Assembly: GCA_017634555.1 (NCBI GenBank)
Contig: JAGBNF010000042.1
Location: 1-61,379 of the forward strand
Direction of reading: 5' to 3'
DNA length: 61,379 nt
Source of the DNA: Eubacterium sp.
Lineage (GTDB): Bacteria; Bacillota; Clostridia; Lachnospirales; Lachnospiraceae
Shown: positions 3,031 through 52,169 of the stretch, in pieces
Position numbering within the stretch: position 1 is the stretch's first letter
How the letters are laid out: every line of letters begins with the position of its first letter
The notes under the pieces: model-generated
Seen by the model: only the letters and a program-made list of their open reading frames with translations
Databases searched by the model: none
Told to the model about the DNA's origin: nothing
Translations under genes and position numbers: made by a program

Positions 3031-4754
3031 AAGCAACTTATAAAAGAATCCTGAAATGTATTAAAAAATATAGATTACTGGTTATTCTTTCACTTATTTC
3101 AGCTGCTGCAACAGTAGTTCTTCAGCTATATATTCCGATTCTTGCCGGAAGAGCGGTGGATCATGTGATAGGTGTTGGAAATGTGGATTATTCTGCGGTG
3201 AAGGATATTCTCACCACAATGATCATAGTTATTGCCGGAGCGGCTATAAGCCAGTGGATAATGAGTATCCTAAACAATAAGATTACCTATAACATCGTTA
3301 AGGATATCAGAACAGAGGCATATAACCATATGGAGACTCTGCCGCTCTCGTATATCGACTCTAAGAGCTACGGAGATACGGTATCCAGAATAGTATCCGA
3401 TATTGATCAGTTTGCCGACGGACTTCTTATGGGTTTTTCCCAGCTTTTTACAGGAGTCATTACTATAGTCGGAACACTTATCTTTATGTTTTCCGTAAAT
3501 GTGAGAATCAGCCTTGTGGTTGTTCTTCTTACACCAATGTCACTTATCTTTGCTTCAAGACTTGCAAAGGCAACCTTCAATATGTTTAAGAAGCAGTCCG
3601 AAGCAAGAGGTGAAATGACAGGCCTCGTAGAAGAGATGATCGGAAATCAGAAGATAGTTCAGGCATTTTCATATGAGGATGACGCAGAGAAGAGATTTGA
3701 AGTGATAAATGATGAGCTTTCAAAGGCAACCCTTAAGGCTACATTTTTCTCATCCCTGACAAATCCGGGTACAAGATTTGTAAACAATATAGTTTATGCC
3801 GGAGTAGGAATAGTAGGTGCATTCTCTGTAATCGGTGGCGTACTTACAGTAGGTCAGCTTACAGTATTCCTCAGCTATGCGACTCAGTATGCTAAGCCGT
3901 TCAATGAAATATCGGGCGTTATGACCGAGCTTCAGAATGCAGTAGCCTGTGCGGCAAGAGTATTCGAAATGATAGATGAAAAACCTGAAATCTCTGATGC
4001 AGATTCAGAAGAACTGAAGGATGTAAAGGGACAGGTGGATATAGATGGAGTTGTATTCTCCTATGTGCCTGACAAGAAGCTTATTACAAACTTTAATCTT
4101 AAGGTTGAGCAGGGAAAGAGAGTAGCGATTGTAGGTCCTACGGGATGCGGCAAGAGTACAGTGATCAATCTTCTGATGAGATTTTATGATGTAAATAAGG
4201 GCTGTATCAGTGTTGACGGTAAGGATATAAGAAAGGTTACTAGAAACAGCCTTAGAGATAATTACGGAATGGTGCTTCAGGAGACCTGGCTTAAGACGGG
4301 TACTGTAAGAGAGAATATTGCATACGGAAAGCCTGATGCAACGGATGAGGAGATAATAGCAGCAGCTAAGCTTACTCATGCTCACAGCTTTATCAGACGT
4401 CTTCCTAAGGGCTACGATACAGAGCTTATAGAGGATGGCGGAATTCTTTCACAGGGACAGAAGCAGCTTCTCTGTATCACAAGAGTAGTTCTGAATCTTC
4501 CGCCTATGCTGATCCTTGATGAAGCTACATCTTCGATAGATACAAGAACTGAGATCAGAATTCAGAATGCCTTTGCAAAGATGATGCAGGGCAGAACAAG
4601 CTTTATAGTAGCACACAGACTTTCAACCATTCAGAGCGCAGATCTGATTCTCGTAATGAAGGATGGAAATATCATCGAGCAGGGTACACATACCGAACTC
4701 CTTGAAAAGAAGGGATTTTATTCAGAACTATATAATGCACAATATGCGAACTAA
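3027..4754 (+). CDS. ABC exporter half-transporter, catalytically canonical subunit
   Basis: This 575-residue partner of the preceding gene has an N-terminal transmembrane domain and a nucleotide-binding domain with Walker A GPTGCGKST (about 369), Walker B LILDEAT (about 495) with the catalytic Glu, and a canonical VAHR H-loop. Its signature is LSQGQ rather than LSGGQ. In a heterodimer that signature would complete the degenerate site formed by the partner's Walker motifs, while the partner's LSGGQ completes this subunit's competent site. The two genes are thus complementary in the way known for asymmetric exporters. A strong AAGGAGGT lies 6 bases before the ATG inside the upstream gene. No terminator follows directly; a multi-hairpin element starts 7 bases after the stop. 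Confidence 0.9.
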   Translation: MKATYKRILKCIKKYRLLVILSLISAAATVVLQLYIPILAGRAVDHVIGVGNVDYSAVKDILTTMIIVIAGAAISQWIMSILNNKITYNIVKDIRTEAYNHMETLPLSYIDSKSYGDTVSRIVSDIDQFADGLLMGFSQLFTGVITIVGTLIFMFSVNVRISLVVVLLTPMSLIFASRLAKATFNMFKKQSEARGEMTGLVEEMIGNQKIVQAFSYEDDAEKRFEVINDELSKATLKATFFSSLTNPGTRFVNNIVYAGVGIVGAFSVIGGVLTVGQLTVFLSYATQYAKPFNEISGVMTELQNAVACAARVFEMIDEKPEISDADSEELKDVKGQVDIDGVVFSYVPDKKLITNFNLKVEQGKRVAIVGPTGCGKSTVINLLMRFYDVNKGCISVDGKDIRKVTRNSLRDNYGMVLQETWLKTGTVRENIAYGKPDATDEEIIAAAKLTHAHSFIRRLPKGYDTELIEDGGILSQGQKQLLCITRVVLNLPPMLILDEATSSIDTRTEIRIQNAFAKMMQGRTSFIVAHRLSTIQSADLILVMKDGNIIEQGTHTELLEKKGFYSELYNAQYAN

Positions 4755-4760
4755 TGTAAC

Positions 4761-4942
4761 TGTTAAGCAGATTGTGAGAATTAATGAAACATCGTGAAAA
4801 CTTGTTTTCTAAGATGTTTCAGTGATTCGAGCAGAACCTGCGCAGCAGGGTTGCATAAATGCATGAAATAATGAGTCTCCGAAGGAGACGGCTAGGTGCG
4901 AAGCACCGACATTATGAATGCATTGATGCAATCTGCTTAACA
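4761..4942. repeat. Multi-hairpin intergenic element A
   Basis: Outer arms TGTTAAGCAGATTGT (4761-4775) and GCAATCTGCTTAACA (4928-4942) are complementary over 15 bp with one G-U. Inside are a hairpin at 4786-4820 (GAAACATC/GATGTTTC around an inner GAAAAC/GTTTTC), a CCTGC-GCA-GCAGG hairpin, and a long imperfect stem (TGCATAAATGCAT.../...ATGCATTGATGCA) enclosing two triloop hairpins, GTCTCC-GAA-GGAGAC and GGTGC-GAA-GCACC. No U-tract follows. The region has no ORF. It may be a structured RNA, a transcript-end stabiliser or a cruciform DNA repeat; the sequence does not decide. Confidence 0.65.
4786..4820. repeat. Hairpin with recurring 22-nt core, copy 1
   Basis: Outer arms GAAACATC and GATGTTTC flank a core containing GTGAAAACTTGTTTTC. 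Bases 4791-4812 are identical to 19968-19989, while the outer stem there is a different but complementary pair. Confidence 0.7.
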
Positions 4943-4976
4943 ATCTGCATAACAAAAGTATTTGGGGGGACGCTAT

Positions 4977-19086: not shown

Positions 19087-19944
19087 ATGAAGATCGTTAA
19101 GACAGTTGATGAGGTTAAGGAAATTGTTAAGGGCTGGAGACGAGAGGGGCTTACTGTAGGTCTTGTTCCTACAATGGGATTTCTTCATGCAGGTCATCAG
19201 AGCCTTATAGCAAAATCCGTGGAGCAGAATGACAGAACGGTTGTTTCGGTATTTGTAAATCCGATCCAGTTCGGACCGAATGAGGATCTTGAGGCATATC
19301 CTAGAGATCTTGAGAGAGATGCCGAGCTTTGTGAGAAGACAGGTGCCGATATTATCTTCAATCCGGAACCTGCAGAAATGTATAAGGACGGATTTGTATC
19401 ATTTGTTGATATGAACGGACTTACAAATCATCTCTGCGGACTTTCGAGACCGGTACATTTCAGAGGAGTATGTACAGTATGTAACAAGCTCTTCAATATT
19501 GCTTCACCTGACAGGGCTTACTTCGGACAGAAGGATGCTCAGCAGCTGGCAGTTATCAAGAGAATGGTTAAGGATCTCAATATGAATCTTGAGATTGTTG
19601 GGTGTCCAATCGTTCGTGAAGAGGACGGACTTGCTATGAGCTCAAGAAATACATATATGAATGCTGAGGAGCGCAAGGCTGCTCTTATTCTCAGCAAGTC
19701 TATCTTCCTTGGAAAGCAGCTCATCGCTGACGGAGAAAGAGATGCAGCTGTTGTAAAGCAGAAGATGACTGAGCTTATCGAGACAGAGCCGATGGCAGAT
19801 ATCGATTATGTTGAGGTTGTAAACAATCTTACAATGGAAAGTATCGATAAGATCGAGGGAGACATCCTTGTTGCAATCGCAGTGAAGATCAACAATAAGG
19901 TTAGACTTATTGATAACTTCATGATGGATGGAGTAACTGTTTAG
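19087..19944 (+). CDS. panC: Pantothenate synthetase
   Basis: This 285-residue PanC joins pantoate and beta-alanine using ATP. VPTMGFLHAGHQSL carries the HIGH-like nucleotide-binding motif, NPIQFGPNEDLEAYPRD is the pantoate-binding segment, and YFGQKDAQQL and AMSSRNTYMN form the ATP-site lid and KMSKS-like region. It is preceded by CGGAGGAAG. Between its stop and panD are 80 bases holding the recurrent 22-nt-core hairpin. Confidence 0.96.
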   Translation: MKIVKTVDEVKEIVKGWRREGLTVGLVPTMGFLHAGHQSLIAKSVEQNDRTVVSVFVNPIQFGPNEDLEAYPRDLERDAELCEKTGADIIFNPEPAEMYKDGFVSFVDMNGLTNHLCGLSRPVHFRGVCTVCNKLFNIASPDRAYFGQKDAQQLAVIKRMVKDLNMNLEIVGCPIVREEDGLAMSSRNTYMNAEERKAALILSKSIFLGKQLIADGERDAAVVKQKMTELIETEPMADIDYVEVVNNLTMESIDKIEGDILVAIAVKINNKVRLIDNFMMDGVTV

Positions 19945-19962
19945 TAGGTAATAACAATAGGA

Positions 19963-19997
19963 TAATCATCGTGAAAACTTGTTTTCTAATATGATTA
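19963..19997. repeat. Hairpin with recurring 22-nt core, copy 2
   Basis: Outer arms TAATCAT and ATGATTA enclose the same core (19968-19989) as the hairpin at 4786-4820, with the inner GAAAAC/GTTTTC pairing. The different yet complementary outer arms indicate selection on structure. It lies between panC and panD. Confidence 0.7.
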
Positions 19998-39365: not shown

Positions 39366-39438
39366 GCTGTTATAGCTCAGACGGTAGAGCGCAACATCGG
39401 TAATGTTGAGGTCACGGGTTCGATTCCCGTTAGCAGCT
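39366..39438 (+). tRNA. tRNA-Thr (anticodon GGT) with C33
   Basis: The cloverleaf is complete: acceptor GCTGTTA/TAGCAGC (one G-U), D-arm GCTCAGACGGTAGAGC, anticodon arm CAACA-TCGGTAA-TGTTG, T-arm ACGGG-TTCGATT-CCCGT, no encoded CCA. The anticodon GGT reads ACC/ACU. Position 33 is C where elongator tRNAs almost always have U. Confidence 0.92.
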
Positions 39439-39450
39439 TGTGAAAATCGA

Positions 39451-39572
39451 GCAAAAGTCACAAATCCGCGAAGCGGATGTGCCGAAAGAAAATAGAGTCC
39501 GTTAAGCTTGCTTAATACGGACTCTATTTTTTTGAGGTATATATCTGCCTCCGGCAGATATGTGACTTTTGC
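39451..39572. repeat. Multi-hairpin intergenic element B
   Basis: The 12-bp perfect outer arms GCAAAAGTCACA (39451-39462) and TGTGACTTTTGC (39561-39572) enclose three hairpins: ATCCGC-GAA-GCGGAT (39464-39478), a terminator (39491-39533) with nested AAGC/GCTT, and ATATCTGCC-TCC-GGCAGATAT (39541-39561). The architecture is the same as the element at 50834-50956. It lies directly after tRNA-Thr in a 312-base gene-free stretch. Confidence 0.7.
39491..39533 (+). terminator. Terminator of tRNA-Thr, central arm of element B
   Basis: AATAGAGTCCG and CGGACTCTATT form an 11-bp stem with nested AAGC/GCTT, then a T-run. Confidence 0.85.
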
Positions 39573-39575
39573 GAG

Positions 39576-39666
39576 ATCACATCATCGCCGTGATGTGGGT
39601 TTTAACCCACATTACGGCGATGTGCTTTGTTGCGGCGATGTGCATTAACCCACATTACGGCGATGT
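39576..39666. repeat. Tandem hairpin-forming repeats TTAACCCACATTACGGCGATGT
   Basis: The unit beginning TTAACCCACATTACGGCG (22 bases in all) occurs at 39602-39623 and 39645-39666, 43 bases apart. The first copy pairs with an inverted partner just upstream (about 39579-39601) to form a hairpin of about 20 bp around ATGTGGGTT/AACCCACAT. A partial GCGGCGATGTG lies between the copies. No protein is encoded. Confidence 0.65.
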
Positions 39667-40379: not shown

Positions 40380-42056
40380 ATGCTTGGGATTTTTAAAAAC
40401 AAAAAGTTCAGAGCTTTACCGATATTAATGTCGATGTGTATCATAGCGGTTACATTTTTCATGAACTGTCCTACAGTATGGGCAGATGATGAGGATGAAT
40501 CAGATAGTTCATGGGAAGAATCTGATGATTCTGCTATGCTGGCTACGGATTCCGATCCTGAGGCATATGATCTTTCACTGGATTATGATTTTGAAAGTTT
40601 CCTCGACGGTCAGGGATTCCCTGAGAGCTACAGAGGATTTTTGAGAGATCTACATGCGAGCCATCCTTCATGGACATTTTATTCGGTTCAGACAGGTATA
40701 GACTGGTATGATCTTGTGGAGAATGAGAGAAATAAGGCCGGACAGGTCAAGAATCTTGTTTACTGCTCATCCTATGAACCGAATTATAACTGGCGTTCTA
40801 CGGAAGTCGGCTATGATTATGATACAAATACCTGGTATCCGTATGACGGTACAACATGGTATGCGGCTTCGAATGATATTGTAAGATATTATCTCGATCC
40901 GAGAACATATCTTTATGAGGGCTATATATTCTGTTTTGAATCACTGTCATATCAGGAAGGCATGCAGAATAGAAGCGGAGTTGAGGCAATCCTGAGCGGA
41001 TCCTTCATGTATGATGCTTATCCGCCGGGAGAATGGCAGCTTTATTCTGAGATCATCATGGATGCTGCGGCTGAGAGTGGTGCAAGCCCTTATCATCTGG
41101 CTTCAAGAATGAAGCAGGAAATGGGAAATGAGATGGGAGTTGCGGCTTCGGGCGATAGCAGCTCTTATCCGGGAATATATAATTACTTCAATATCGGTGC
41201 CGTAGATACACCGAGCGGTTCGGCTGTTTATAACGGACTCAGCTGGGCGGCAAGTGACGGAAGCTATGGAAGACCATGGGACAGCCCATGGAAGTCCATA
41301 GTCGGAGGAGCTGAATTCCTTGCGCAGTCATATATCTCATGCGGACAGGATACGCTTTATACACAGAAGTTTAATGTTACAAATACTTCGTGTTTATTCT
41401 ATCATCAGTATATGTCAAATATTCAGGCGCCGGCAAACGAGGGCTATTCACAGTACAGAGCCTATGCAGCAAACGGACTGCTTGATTCTTCTATAGTGTT
41501 TAAGATACCGGTTTACGAGAATATGCCGGATTATCCGGTTTCAAAGCCGTCAGAGAGCGGTACACCGAATGATTATCTTGCATATCTTTCAATCGACGGA
41601 TATTCACTTACACCTTCGTTCAGAAGTGATGTGGTTGATTATTCGCTCATAGTTGATGAGTCTGTATCAAGTATCAATATTTCAGCAGCGGCAGCAGCCG
41701 GTTCGTCAAATGTTAACGGTACCGGAAATATCAGTCTGTACGAAGGAACAAATAAGCTGGTAGTTTCTGTAACCTCAGATACGGGAAGCGTAAGAAATTA
41801 CAACATCACCGTTGTAAGAGGTTCAGGCGGATCGCCGGGCGGTTCAAACGCTCCTTCGGGAGGAAGAGGCGATATCAACGGAGACGGAAAGATAAGCGCA
41901 CTTGATATAGTTAAGATTCAGAGACTTATCGTCGGTATTGATGAAAAAACAGATGCCATATTCTCTGTAGCGGATGTTAACGGAGACGGAAAGATAAGTG
42001 CACTTGATATAGTTAAGATACAGAGACATATAGTAGGTCTTGAAACTATAGATTAA
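40380..42056 (+). CDS. Secreted glucosaminidase-like protein with cadherin-like and dockerin domains
   Basis: The 558-residue protein has a signal peptide (about 1-35, ending VWADDED), an acidic segment, and a catalytic region (about 75-385) typical of GH73-like endo-beta-N-acetylglucosaminidases, with SPYHLASRMKQEMGNEMG carrying the likely catalytic Glu. A cadherin-like beta-sandwich follows (about 400-480; YLAYLSIDGYSLTPSF to NYNITVVRG), then a Gly/Ser linker and two dockerin type I repeats (about 496-558): DINGDGKISALDIVKIQR and DVNGDGKISALDIVKIQR, each with the calcium-loop pattern DxNGDGxxxxxD. The enzyme would be secreted and docked through cohesin contact. AGGGGTGAG precedes the ATG. 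The cohesin-like gene starts 36 bases downstream. Confidence 0.85.
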   Translation: MLGIFKNKKFRALPILMSMCIIAVTFFMNCPTVWADDEDESDSSWEESDDSAMLATDSDPEAYDLSLDYDFESFLDGQGFPESYRGFLRDLHASHPSWTFYSVQTGIDWYDLVENERNKAGQVKNLVYCSSYEPNYNWRSTEVGYDYDTNTWYPYDGTTWYAASNDIVRYYLDPRTYLYEGYIFCFESLSYQEGMQNRSGVEAILSGSFMYDAYPPGEWQLYSEIIMDAAAESGASPYHLASRMKQEMGNEMGVAASGDSSSYPGIYNYFNIGAVDTPSGSAVYNGLSWAASDGSYGRPWDSPWKSIVGGAEFLAQSYISCGQDTLYTQKFNVTNTSCLFYHQYMSNIQAPANEGYSQYRAYAANGLLDSSIVFKIPVYENMPDYPVSKPSESGTPNDYLAYLSIDGYSLTPSFRSDVVDYSLIVDESVSSINISAAAAAGSSNVNGTGNISLYEGTNKLVVSVTSDTGSVRNYNITVVRGSGGSPGGSNAPSGGRGDINGDGKISALDIVKIQRLIVGIDEKTDAIFSVADVNGDGKISALDIVKIQRHIVGLETID

Positions 42057-49194: not shown

Positions 49195-50817
<1,623 letters not shown>

Positions 50818-50833
50818 CGTGTTAACAGCGAGA

Positions 50834-50956
50834 CAAAGTATATAGCGCACATGCGTAGCATGTGACAAAAAGAGACCACGTCCGCAAGTTTACTTGCTTG
50901 GACGTGGTTTTCTTTTTGTCAAAAGCTGCCTGTGGCAGCGTGCGCTATATACTTTG
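50834..50956. repeat. Multi-hairpin intergenic element C
   Basis: The 17-bp perfect outer arms CAAAGTATATAGCGCAC (50834-50850) and GTGCGCTATATACTTTG (50940-50956) enclose three arms: CACATGC-GTA-GCATGTG, a long terminator arm (50863-50921), and GCTGCC-TGT-GGCAGC (50925-50939). A further hairpin TATCGCC/GGCGATA follows at 50969-50995. The plan matches element B: small hairpin, terminator with nested hairpin, small hairpin, all inside a long stem. The 296-base gap after groEL holds no gene. Confidence 0.75.
50863..50921 (+). terminator. Terminator of groESL, central arm of element C
   Basis: The outer pair is GACAAAAAGA/TCTTTTTGTC, the inner pair ACCACGTCC/GGACGTGGT, with nested GCAAG/CTTGC. 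The T-run lies in the right arm. Confidence 0.75.
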
Positions 50957-51113
50957 GCGAGCGTCGCGTATCGCCGTAGCGAAGCGAAGGCGATAATGTC
51001 CCCCTCATCCCCATTTCCGTCCCTCTTATTCACATTTTCTTGCCAATGCATCTCCATTCGTATATAAATTATACATACACTACATTTACCACTTACATCA
51101 TCGGAGGTACACA

Positions 51114-52169
51114 ATGCAGAAATTATCTAACCAGGAGAAGCTCCGCCCATGGATGGGTGTTGCCTTATTCATATTCATTATGGCCGTATTTCTTACACTG
51201 GGTCAGTATATGCAAGTCAAATGGGGAATGACAGGACTTGTTTTTACAGAACTCATGTTCCTCGCTATTGCAGTCATATTTTCACTTATCAGAGGAGTCA
51301 GTCTGAAGGAGGTCTTCCCGGTGAAGAAGATAACGCTCAGAGATCTGTTCGGCTGTGCGGCGCTTCATGCGGGAGGGTTTCTCCTATCATATATAAGCAT
51401 TGCATTAGTCGGAATTATCTATCCAAAGTCTCTTAAAATAGCAGACAGCCTTAATGATTTTATGTTTGGAAATCTGACTTTTATTCCTGCGCTTCTTATC
51501 ATCGGACTGCTTCCGGCAATATGTGAAGAGGCTATACACAGAGGCGCAATATTATCCTGCTTCAGATCCATAAAGAAGGATTGGATTATCGTTCTGATAA
51601 TGGCAATATTCTTCGGTGTGAACCATATATACATAATCAAATTCTTTTCGACTGCCATACTGGGTGGCGTACTCGCTTATGTACTTGTAAAGAAAAACAA
51701 TATACTTCTTACGATGCTCATGCATTTTACAAATAATGCATTAAGTGTAATCGTTACTTACAGGCAGGGGGCGGAAAGCAGTGATGCGGCATCTATTGCC
51801 GATATGAACCTTGTACCGGTTCTCGGAGTATATATGATCATCGGATGTGTGGTTCCTTTCCTTTTTGTTGTCGGAAGCCTTTTGTTAAAGCCTGAAGAAC
51901 ATAAAAAGAAAAGATTTGCCATTGCTGCAATAGTATCGGTGATCATGGTGATATCCGGTGCGATGATCCTTATCAAGGGAGGTTTGTCAGCTCAGCACCT
52001 GAACAGTACTGTATCGTATGAGGTTACAGCAGAAGAAAAGGAGATTGTAGATATTTTTACAGGCGGAAGAGGTCGGTGGAATTGCCGATTTCTTCCGTTT
52101 TTCTTAAGATTTAATATATTGATTATGATGTATGGTTTCGGTATACTAAATGTTGTGTATTGCCCATAA
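51114..52169 (+). CDS. CPBP-family intramembrane metalloprotease (CAAX protease-like)
   Basis: The 351-residue membrane protein has about eight helices. The CPBP (ABI) signatures are present: the glutamate pair in CEEAIHRGAILSCF (about residues 138-151), the histidine in FFGVNHIY (about 170), and a final MLMHFTNNALS motif (about 203). These residues form the Rce1-like active site within the membrane. Bacterial members serve in peptide maturation or bacteriocin self-protection, among other roles; nothing nearby points to one. The last 30 residues look atypical for the family. GGAGGTACACA precedes the ATG. Confidence 0.87.
   Translation: MQKLSNQEKLRPWMGVALFIFIMAVFLTLGQYMQVKWGMTGLVFTELMFLAIAVIFSLIRGVSLKEVFPVKKITLRDLFGCAALHAGGFLLSYISIALVGIIYPKSLKIADSLNDFMFGNLTFIPALLIIGLLPAICEEAIHRGAILSCFRSIKKDWIIVLIMAIFFGVNHIYIIKFFSTAILGGVLAYVLVKKNNILLTMLMHFTNNALSVIVTYRQGAESSDAASIADMNLVPVLGVYMIIGCVVPFLFVVGSLLLKPEEHKKKRFAIAAIVSVIMVISGAMILIKGGLSAQHLNSTVSYEVTAEEKEIVDIFTGGRGRWNCRFLPFFLRFNILIMMYGFGILNVVYCP

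Follow-up and report, generated by a model that had tools for sequence, protein, structure and literature searches.

Directly downstream of groEL in a Eubacterium sp. contig (JAGBNF010000042.1), all 61,379 nucleotides of which were analyzed and are called the window here, lies a branched element that we term C. Our reading, to which we assign a probability of about 75%, is that C belongs to a family of structured interspersed repeats, short (~180 nt) and found at the level of the genus, that spreads by insertion at terminators, and that the variable central arm of this copy now acts as a terminator itself.

Structure of element C

Element C, including its tail hairpin, spans positions 50818 to 50999 (this and all features below are on the + strand). 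It begins directly at the groEL stop codon, and its outer limits were set by eye. The element separates groEL (Cpn60; 49195 to 50817; Pfam PF00118, 279.8 bits) from a gene encoding an Rce1-like (CPBP) membrane protease (51114 to 52169; PF02517). Relatives of the neighboring gene's protein (≤52% identity) were labeled Saccharofermentans sp., Ruminococcaceae, and Clostridiales or Clostridia bacterium, among others, and many of them are of rumen and gut origin.

An earlier interpretation made from the DNA alone (the sequence-only reading) had described a perfect outer stem around three inner arms, and its coordinates proved exact. The left outer arm, CAAAGTATATAGCGCAC (50834 to 50850), is the perfect 17-bp complement of the right arm (50940 to 50956), with 89 nt between them. 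Inside this stem we found the predicted hairpin H1 with its GTA triloop (ACATGC-GTA-GCATGT; 50848 to 50864), the variable central arm V (50865 to 50924), and the predicted hairpin H3 with its TGT triloop (GCTGCC-TGT-GGCAGC; 50925 to 50939), all as described; V is split into two segments by a 2-nt bulge on its 3′ side, and H1 is in competition with the outer arm over 3 bp. The outer stem extends outward through a tandem G-A motif in which 50830 to 50831 face 50959 to 50960 (the latter within CGAG), both halves being invariant columns of alignment A2. Because a further hairpin (TATCGCC..GGCGATA; 50969 to 50995), similar to tails in other copies, comes after the outer stem, C measures ~180 nt rather than 123.

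The outer stem had been judged unlikely to arise by chance, and our analysis bears this out. Among 40 dinucleotide shuffles of the window, the longest perfect arm with a partner 60 to 200 nt away was 14 bp. As RNA, C folds at −79.1 kcal/mol (z = −10.0), whereas 200 shuffles averaged −40.15 and none of them reached so low a value. When the window was searched mechanically for outer stems that have a hairpin abutting each arm, two places emerged, C and a second element, B (39451 to 39572); on 20 shuffles the same search gave 2 matches in total. On the fold energy, the arm-length shuffles, and the window search together, we rejected a chance palindrome. At threshold, Rfam contained only two tRNAs in the window and no family in C. 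Sub-threshold hairpin matches of C to microRNA families at E ≤ 1 (MIR535, 32.2 bits, cut-off 64) were taken as chance.

A dispersed repeat family and its sites

With the surroundings of B as the query, the right end of B was found repeated elsewhere in its own genome and in relatives. A covariance model, R2, built from eleven copies that included neither B, C, nor the ortholog of C in the related genome G006, recovered C (50826 to 50965, 64.2 bits) and B (109.6 bits) and found nothing else above 16 bits in the window. Model R1, whose own sequences include C, matched C at 50819 to 50973 with 82.7 bits. The R2 alignment slides within the longer outer stem of C, so the exact register in C rests on the sequence itself. 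Matches to R1 occur in at least 33 of the 41 genus genomes, our own included, and at no fewer than 13 distinct places (16 rows) in our own genome; these counts are lower bounds because just 77 of 421 to 1820 first-look candidates were scored per genome. Elsewhere in the order, one of 145 genomes gave a match, a weak one (E = 1.2e-4), in a survey that scored 21 candidates per genome and may miss weaker matches. The suggestion that C is a repeat is thus upheld: it is a copy in a dispersed, genus-level family.

Copies share a common plan: an outer stem with the tandem G-A motif, H1 and H3 with triloops on either side of V, the return of the outer stem, and a tail hairpin. They are ~66 to 190 nt long, many start with GTGCG or GCGCG, and for many of them both strands match the model. 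Miniature copies lack H1, V, or H3 (L166 and L249), and at L161, L219, and L163 the right half is partly duplicated in tandem. When 14 copies were aligned, 93.8% of cells were paired, and none of 500 shuffles scored as high on any of five measures. Of the alignment's 54 consensus pairs, 35 show two-sided changes in one copy or more, and these include all 23 pairs of V. The family resembles BOX-like elements and MITEs in that its copies are short (<200 nt) and dispersed, have ends that pair with each other, and are present or absent at orthologous sites. Among titles and the beginnings of abstracts, a scope that leaves most subscription papers outside, we found no description of this repeat family.

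The sequence-only reading had described the three-arm architecture of C as a shared one. This holds for B (39438 to 39586), a second family copy that lies directly after a tRNA-Thr gene and whose V arm ends in a T-run. A third block, element A (4754 to 4962), is a related-looking intergenic branched palindrome (fold z = −10.6) with a different arm order. Element A scored just 16.8 bits with R1 and had no R2 match at E ≤ 1. Its left part recurs at 19933 to 19996 (77% over 64 nt), both places being at the ends of reading frames. Directly behind B, at 39583 to 39665, lies the palindromic unit CATCGCCGTGATGTGGGTT, accompanied by two complementary copies. Farther on (41871 to 42043), two 71-nt direct repeats 102 nt apart within a reading frame resemble dockerin-type calcium repeats.

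At 23 other genus loci with the same tRNA (L116 to L138), no credible family match was found (best, 13.4 bits, E = 0.09); six further loci (L139 to L144) without a readable tRNA match were left out. Genome G026 (L116) has a plain terminator at the site of B, and the start of the window's downstream gene is, by eye, common to both. At L131 a similar right end, visible by eye and not called by the model, lies farther downstream.

Among close relatives only G006 has an orthologous copy of C, and it keeps the paired arms. Over the 395 bases compared, element C included, it is 91% identical to the window, and where the 17-bp stem differs, at two pairs, the change on one side is matched on the other. 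Its V arm differs more than the outer stem and still pairs, and the lowest-energy fold of this copy has rearranged small hairpins. Two G006 contigs have a common 55-base end, an assembly break at which a tandem second half is probable. The other members of the genus speak against a conserved function at groEL, since their groEL 3′ flanks often carry other large branched structures, some truncated, or none at all; in this survey, L024 ends at a contig end and L030 lacks a proper gene end. Thirteen of these flank loci gave no R2 match at E ≤ 1. By eye, second halves of groEL-flank structures seem tandemly repeated at L007, L013, L014, and L020, and at L026 (G015) the left half of the relatives' element seems replaced by another structured element. 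Other palindrome arrays occur in related genomes (TGTACAAGC; TTCACGGC; long mixed arrays) at L039, L042, L052, and L058 to L060.

Family copies tend to start directly after a hairpin and T-run. By an energy-based count this is so for 48 of 64 copies, whereas of 1920 positions drawn at random from the same loci, coding sequence included, 252 (13%) qualify; a strict version that accepts perfect hairpins gave 33/64 against 501/6400. The 64 copies are what remained of 91 rows after removal of 25 that repeat a place on the opposite strand and of the two for a short copy, L167. The remaining 16 copies, with B and C among those lacking such a start, make this a habit of the family and not part of its definition. 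Since neither B nor C follows a separate terminator, we infer their insertion behind one from the other copies. At two places in our own genome, G006 has the terminator and the gene without the repeat, which puts the insertion point at the end of the T-run; no target duplication was obvious at these two empty sites, where the flanks have diverged. In 54 loci scanned, eight copies have a riboswitch or T-box upstream on the same strand: SAM (L157 and L254), ZTP (L158), lysine (L234), and TPP (L250) riboswitches and T-boxes at L160 and L161 (both below the gathering score) and L167 (outside the 64-copy set). Attenuators of these kinds are thus among the hairpin and T-run signals that copies follow. 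Judging from identity upstream (42/51 to 53/58), four sites seem to hold a copy in each of two species. Three of these pairs were measured in full, and in them V is the part that differs most but remains paired.

Probable RNA-level folding and the central arm as a likely terminator

A stem maintained as RNA transcribed from one strand tolerates G-U mismatches and does not tolerate A-C mismatches. With equal penalties, the ratio of G-U to A-C in the 47 usable V arms of the 64 was 44:17 (p = 7e-4), a ratio that is exactly swapped on the reverse strand. Random hairpins gave 4245:4284, and upstream terminators, the positive control, gave 60:9. In 16 groEL arms of relatives the ratio was 20:6. For the V arms it weakened to 25:10 once pruning at 70% identity had left 31 of them (p = 0.017; sign test per element, p = 0.06). 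An earlier ungapped version, which is unable to cross the bulge in V and was replaced for that reason, had shown no asymmetry (18:23 in 26 V arms; 8:11 in 12 groEL arms from relatives). Outer stems gave 53:15, a count we set aside given the common ancestry of the ends. Part of the asymmetry could come from strand-biased deamination. With moderate confidence, we favor folding of the family as sense-strand RNA on the basis of the G-U excess.

The sequence-only reading had reasoned that the full structure of C forms only in read-through RNA or as DNA; the argument for read-through RNA is sound and fits the sense-strand G-U excess. The V arm of C comprises a GC-rich segment followed by TTTTCTTTTT. 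A simple terminator pattern scan did not call it; we predict that it is likely the terminator of groEL, and by its sequence it is symmetric enough to work in both directions. Both B and C have no separate terminator ahead of the repeat and carry the T-run in V itself, so that in these two copies the central arm looks like the terminator, and C probably provides groEL with its own stop signal. The further proposal of an anti-terminator, with the outer stem as a competitor of the groEL terminator, draws on the position of the right outer arm beyond the T-run. In the predicted fold, however, the terminator arm is intact inside the outer stem, so formation of that stem leaves the terminator unbroken, and competition is limited to the 3 bp of H1. 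We regard an anti-terminator role as highly improbable.

Two broader alternatives were weighed against a mobile family folding as RNA. One is a DNA-level structure, a cruciform or recombination site, whose palindrome is kept perfect by template switching during replication without selection. Many compensated changes, the match of both strands of many copies to the model, and the partial right-half duplications, which palindrome-prone replication would be expected to produce, all agree with it; correction alone would not be expected to yield a strand-specific excess of G-U over A-C, conserved ends, or a conserved unpaired G-A motif, and we consider this explanation unlikely. We think it similarly improbable that the family is a host-made RNA regulator, spread by duplication rather than transposition, whose read-through four-way junction acts on the downstream gene or binds a protein. 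Such a regulator would account for the RNA-level G-U excess, for the several copies between an attenuator and a gene, and for the sites seemingly occupied in two species with V changed but paired. The upstream attenuators differ in kind, however, so no single pathway is served by the family; the miniature copies and the empty sites also speak against it, as does the distribution of downstream genes, a start codon with a ribosome-binding site within 100 nt following 22 of 64 copies, little above random positions (524/1920).

Proposed mobilization and relation to known elements

For the preferred reading, a family that spreads by insertion, we propose the following course. The repeat would move as a nonautonomous element into sites at terminators, where read-through transcripts would include the inserted copies, some of them within a leader that joins an attenuator to its gene. 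Foldability would be retained such that the element closes on itself, sparing the upstream stop signal and the downstream ribosome-binding site. In C and B, the V arm would have gained a U-tract and come to serve as the terminator of groEL and tRNA-Thr, respectively, so that the element may now belong to the end of the host's transcript.

We could not link the family to any transposase, recombinase, or reverse transcriptase. The match to a known insertion element that would have weighed against the first reading of C did not turn up among the mobile elements compared, which were loci of Y1 transposases and of group II introns. Y1 genes are present in 25 of the 41 genus genomes, and our own has one that is RAYT-like (a name given from its length). 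REP elements, which are paired with RAYT (Y1) transposases, are likewise short extragenic hairpins; unlike them, the family has no R1 match at E ≤ 0.1 in any of 16 Y1 loci, which argues against mobilization of the RAYT/IS200 type. Several Y1 loci carry, by eye, other hairpins of their own. An autonomous partner with the same ends was not found among the 16 Y1 and 9 group II intron loci. The closest pairs among 32 full-length copies within five genomes were 92 to 93% identical (G026 and G027) and none were identical, which suggests that movement in these genomes is old or slow.

Group IIC introns begin with GUGYG. Many family copies start with GTGCG or GCGCG; C starts with GTGTT and departs from the intron motif. 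At three of nine genus group II intron loci (L308, L314, and L315; class inferred), GTGCG lies near a T-run. Group IIC introns often lie directly behind intrinsic terminators (PMC3240598, which cites Robart 2007), as copies of the family do. In contrast to such introns, family copies are only ~66 to 190 nt long and have no ribozyme-core match: the Rfam group II core matched neither the window nor L155 to L168, and R1 matched none of the nine intron loci at E ≤ 0.1. Of 41 genomes, 9 have a group II maturase domain that scores over its cut-off and 13 have a reverse transcriptase, among them the copy-rich G006 and G027; none was found in the copy-rich G017, G026, G062, or our own genome (72% complete). 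Action of a group II reverse transcriptase in trans is thus not supported, the enzyme being present in some copy-rich genomes and not found in others. Because the entry point is common to group IIC introns, we can picture a SINE-like bacterial noncoding RNA, without a ribozyme core, that copies itself through an RNA stage behind intrinsic terminators with an enzyme supplied in trans; this is a speculative idea with little likelihood. If it were true, the constant fold with its freely changing V would be what the copying machinery reads, and riboswitch and T-box attenuators would be among the landing sites.

By description rather than by sequence, the family is close to the BOX, RUP, and SPRITE repeats of Streptococcus pneumoniae (PMC3049150). 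All three are short and interspersed; BOX and RUP fold strongly as RNA and have ends that pair, BOX is modular, its inner part missing or repeated, and SPRITE is terminator-like and enriched near gene 3′ ends. Our family is likewise short, interspersed, and folded, with paired ends. Unlike these elements as described there, three quarters of the family copies examined begin exactly behind the T-run of an intrinsic terminator, and its inner arm changes sequence while staying paired.

The Clostridiales-1 RNA (RF01699; listed in a table of PMC2864571) also has an outer stem, a long variable hairpin with an asymmetric bulge, and a purine-rich internal-loop arm. The tail of the family copy at L159 matches that internal-loop arm (33.9 bits), and L161 scores 28.4 bits with the Clostridiales-1 RNA. 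No family copy in the loci scanned reached the 48-bit threshold, C had no match at E ≤ 1, R2 had none at E ≤ 1 in six Clostridiales-1 loci, and sub-threshold matches occurred at two of nine groEL-flank loci scanned. In genome G007, five equal-score copies and one near copy of the Clostridiales-1 RNA are present (L203 to L207 and L209). Their flanks are an identical A/T-rich 6-bp sequence in four of six, with 5 and 4 of the 6 bp in the others, and the unit has similar inverted ends by eye; this RNA looks recently mobile in G007.

What could have passed for an isolated odd terminator thus becomes a family of folded repeats that settle where transcription stops, riboswitch and T-box leaders included, in one genus of gut-type bacteria. 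The family touches Clostridiales-1, an Rfam family of unknown function that looks mobile in this genus too. Its members are apparently able to become the terminator themselves, and the family may serve as a natural test of how a mobile sequence turns into regulatory RNA.
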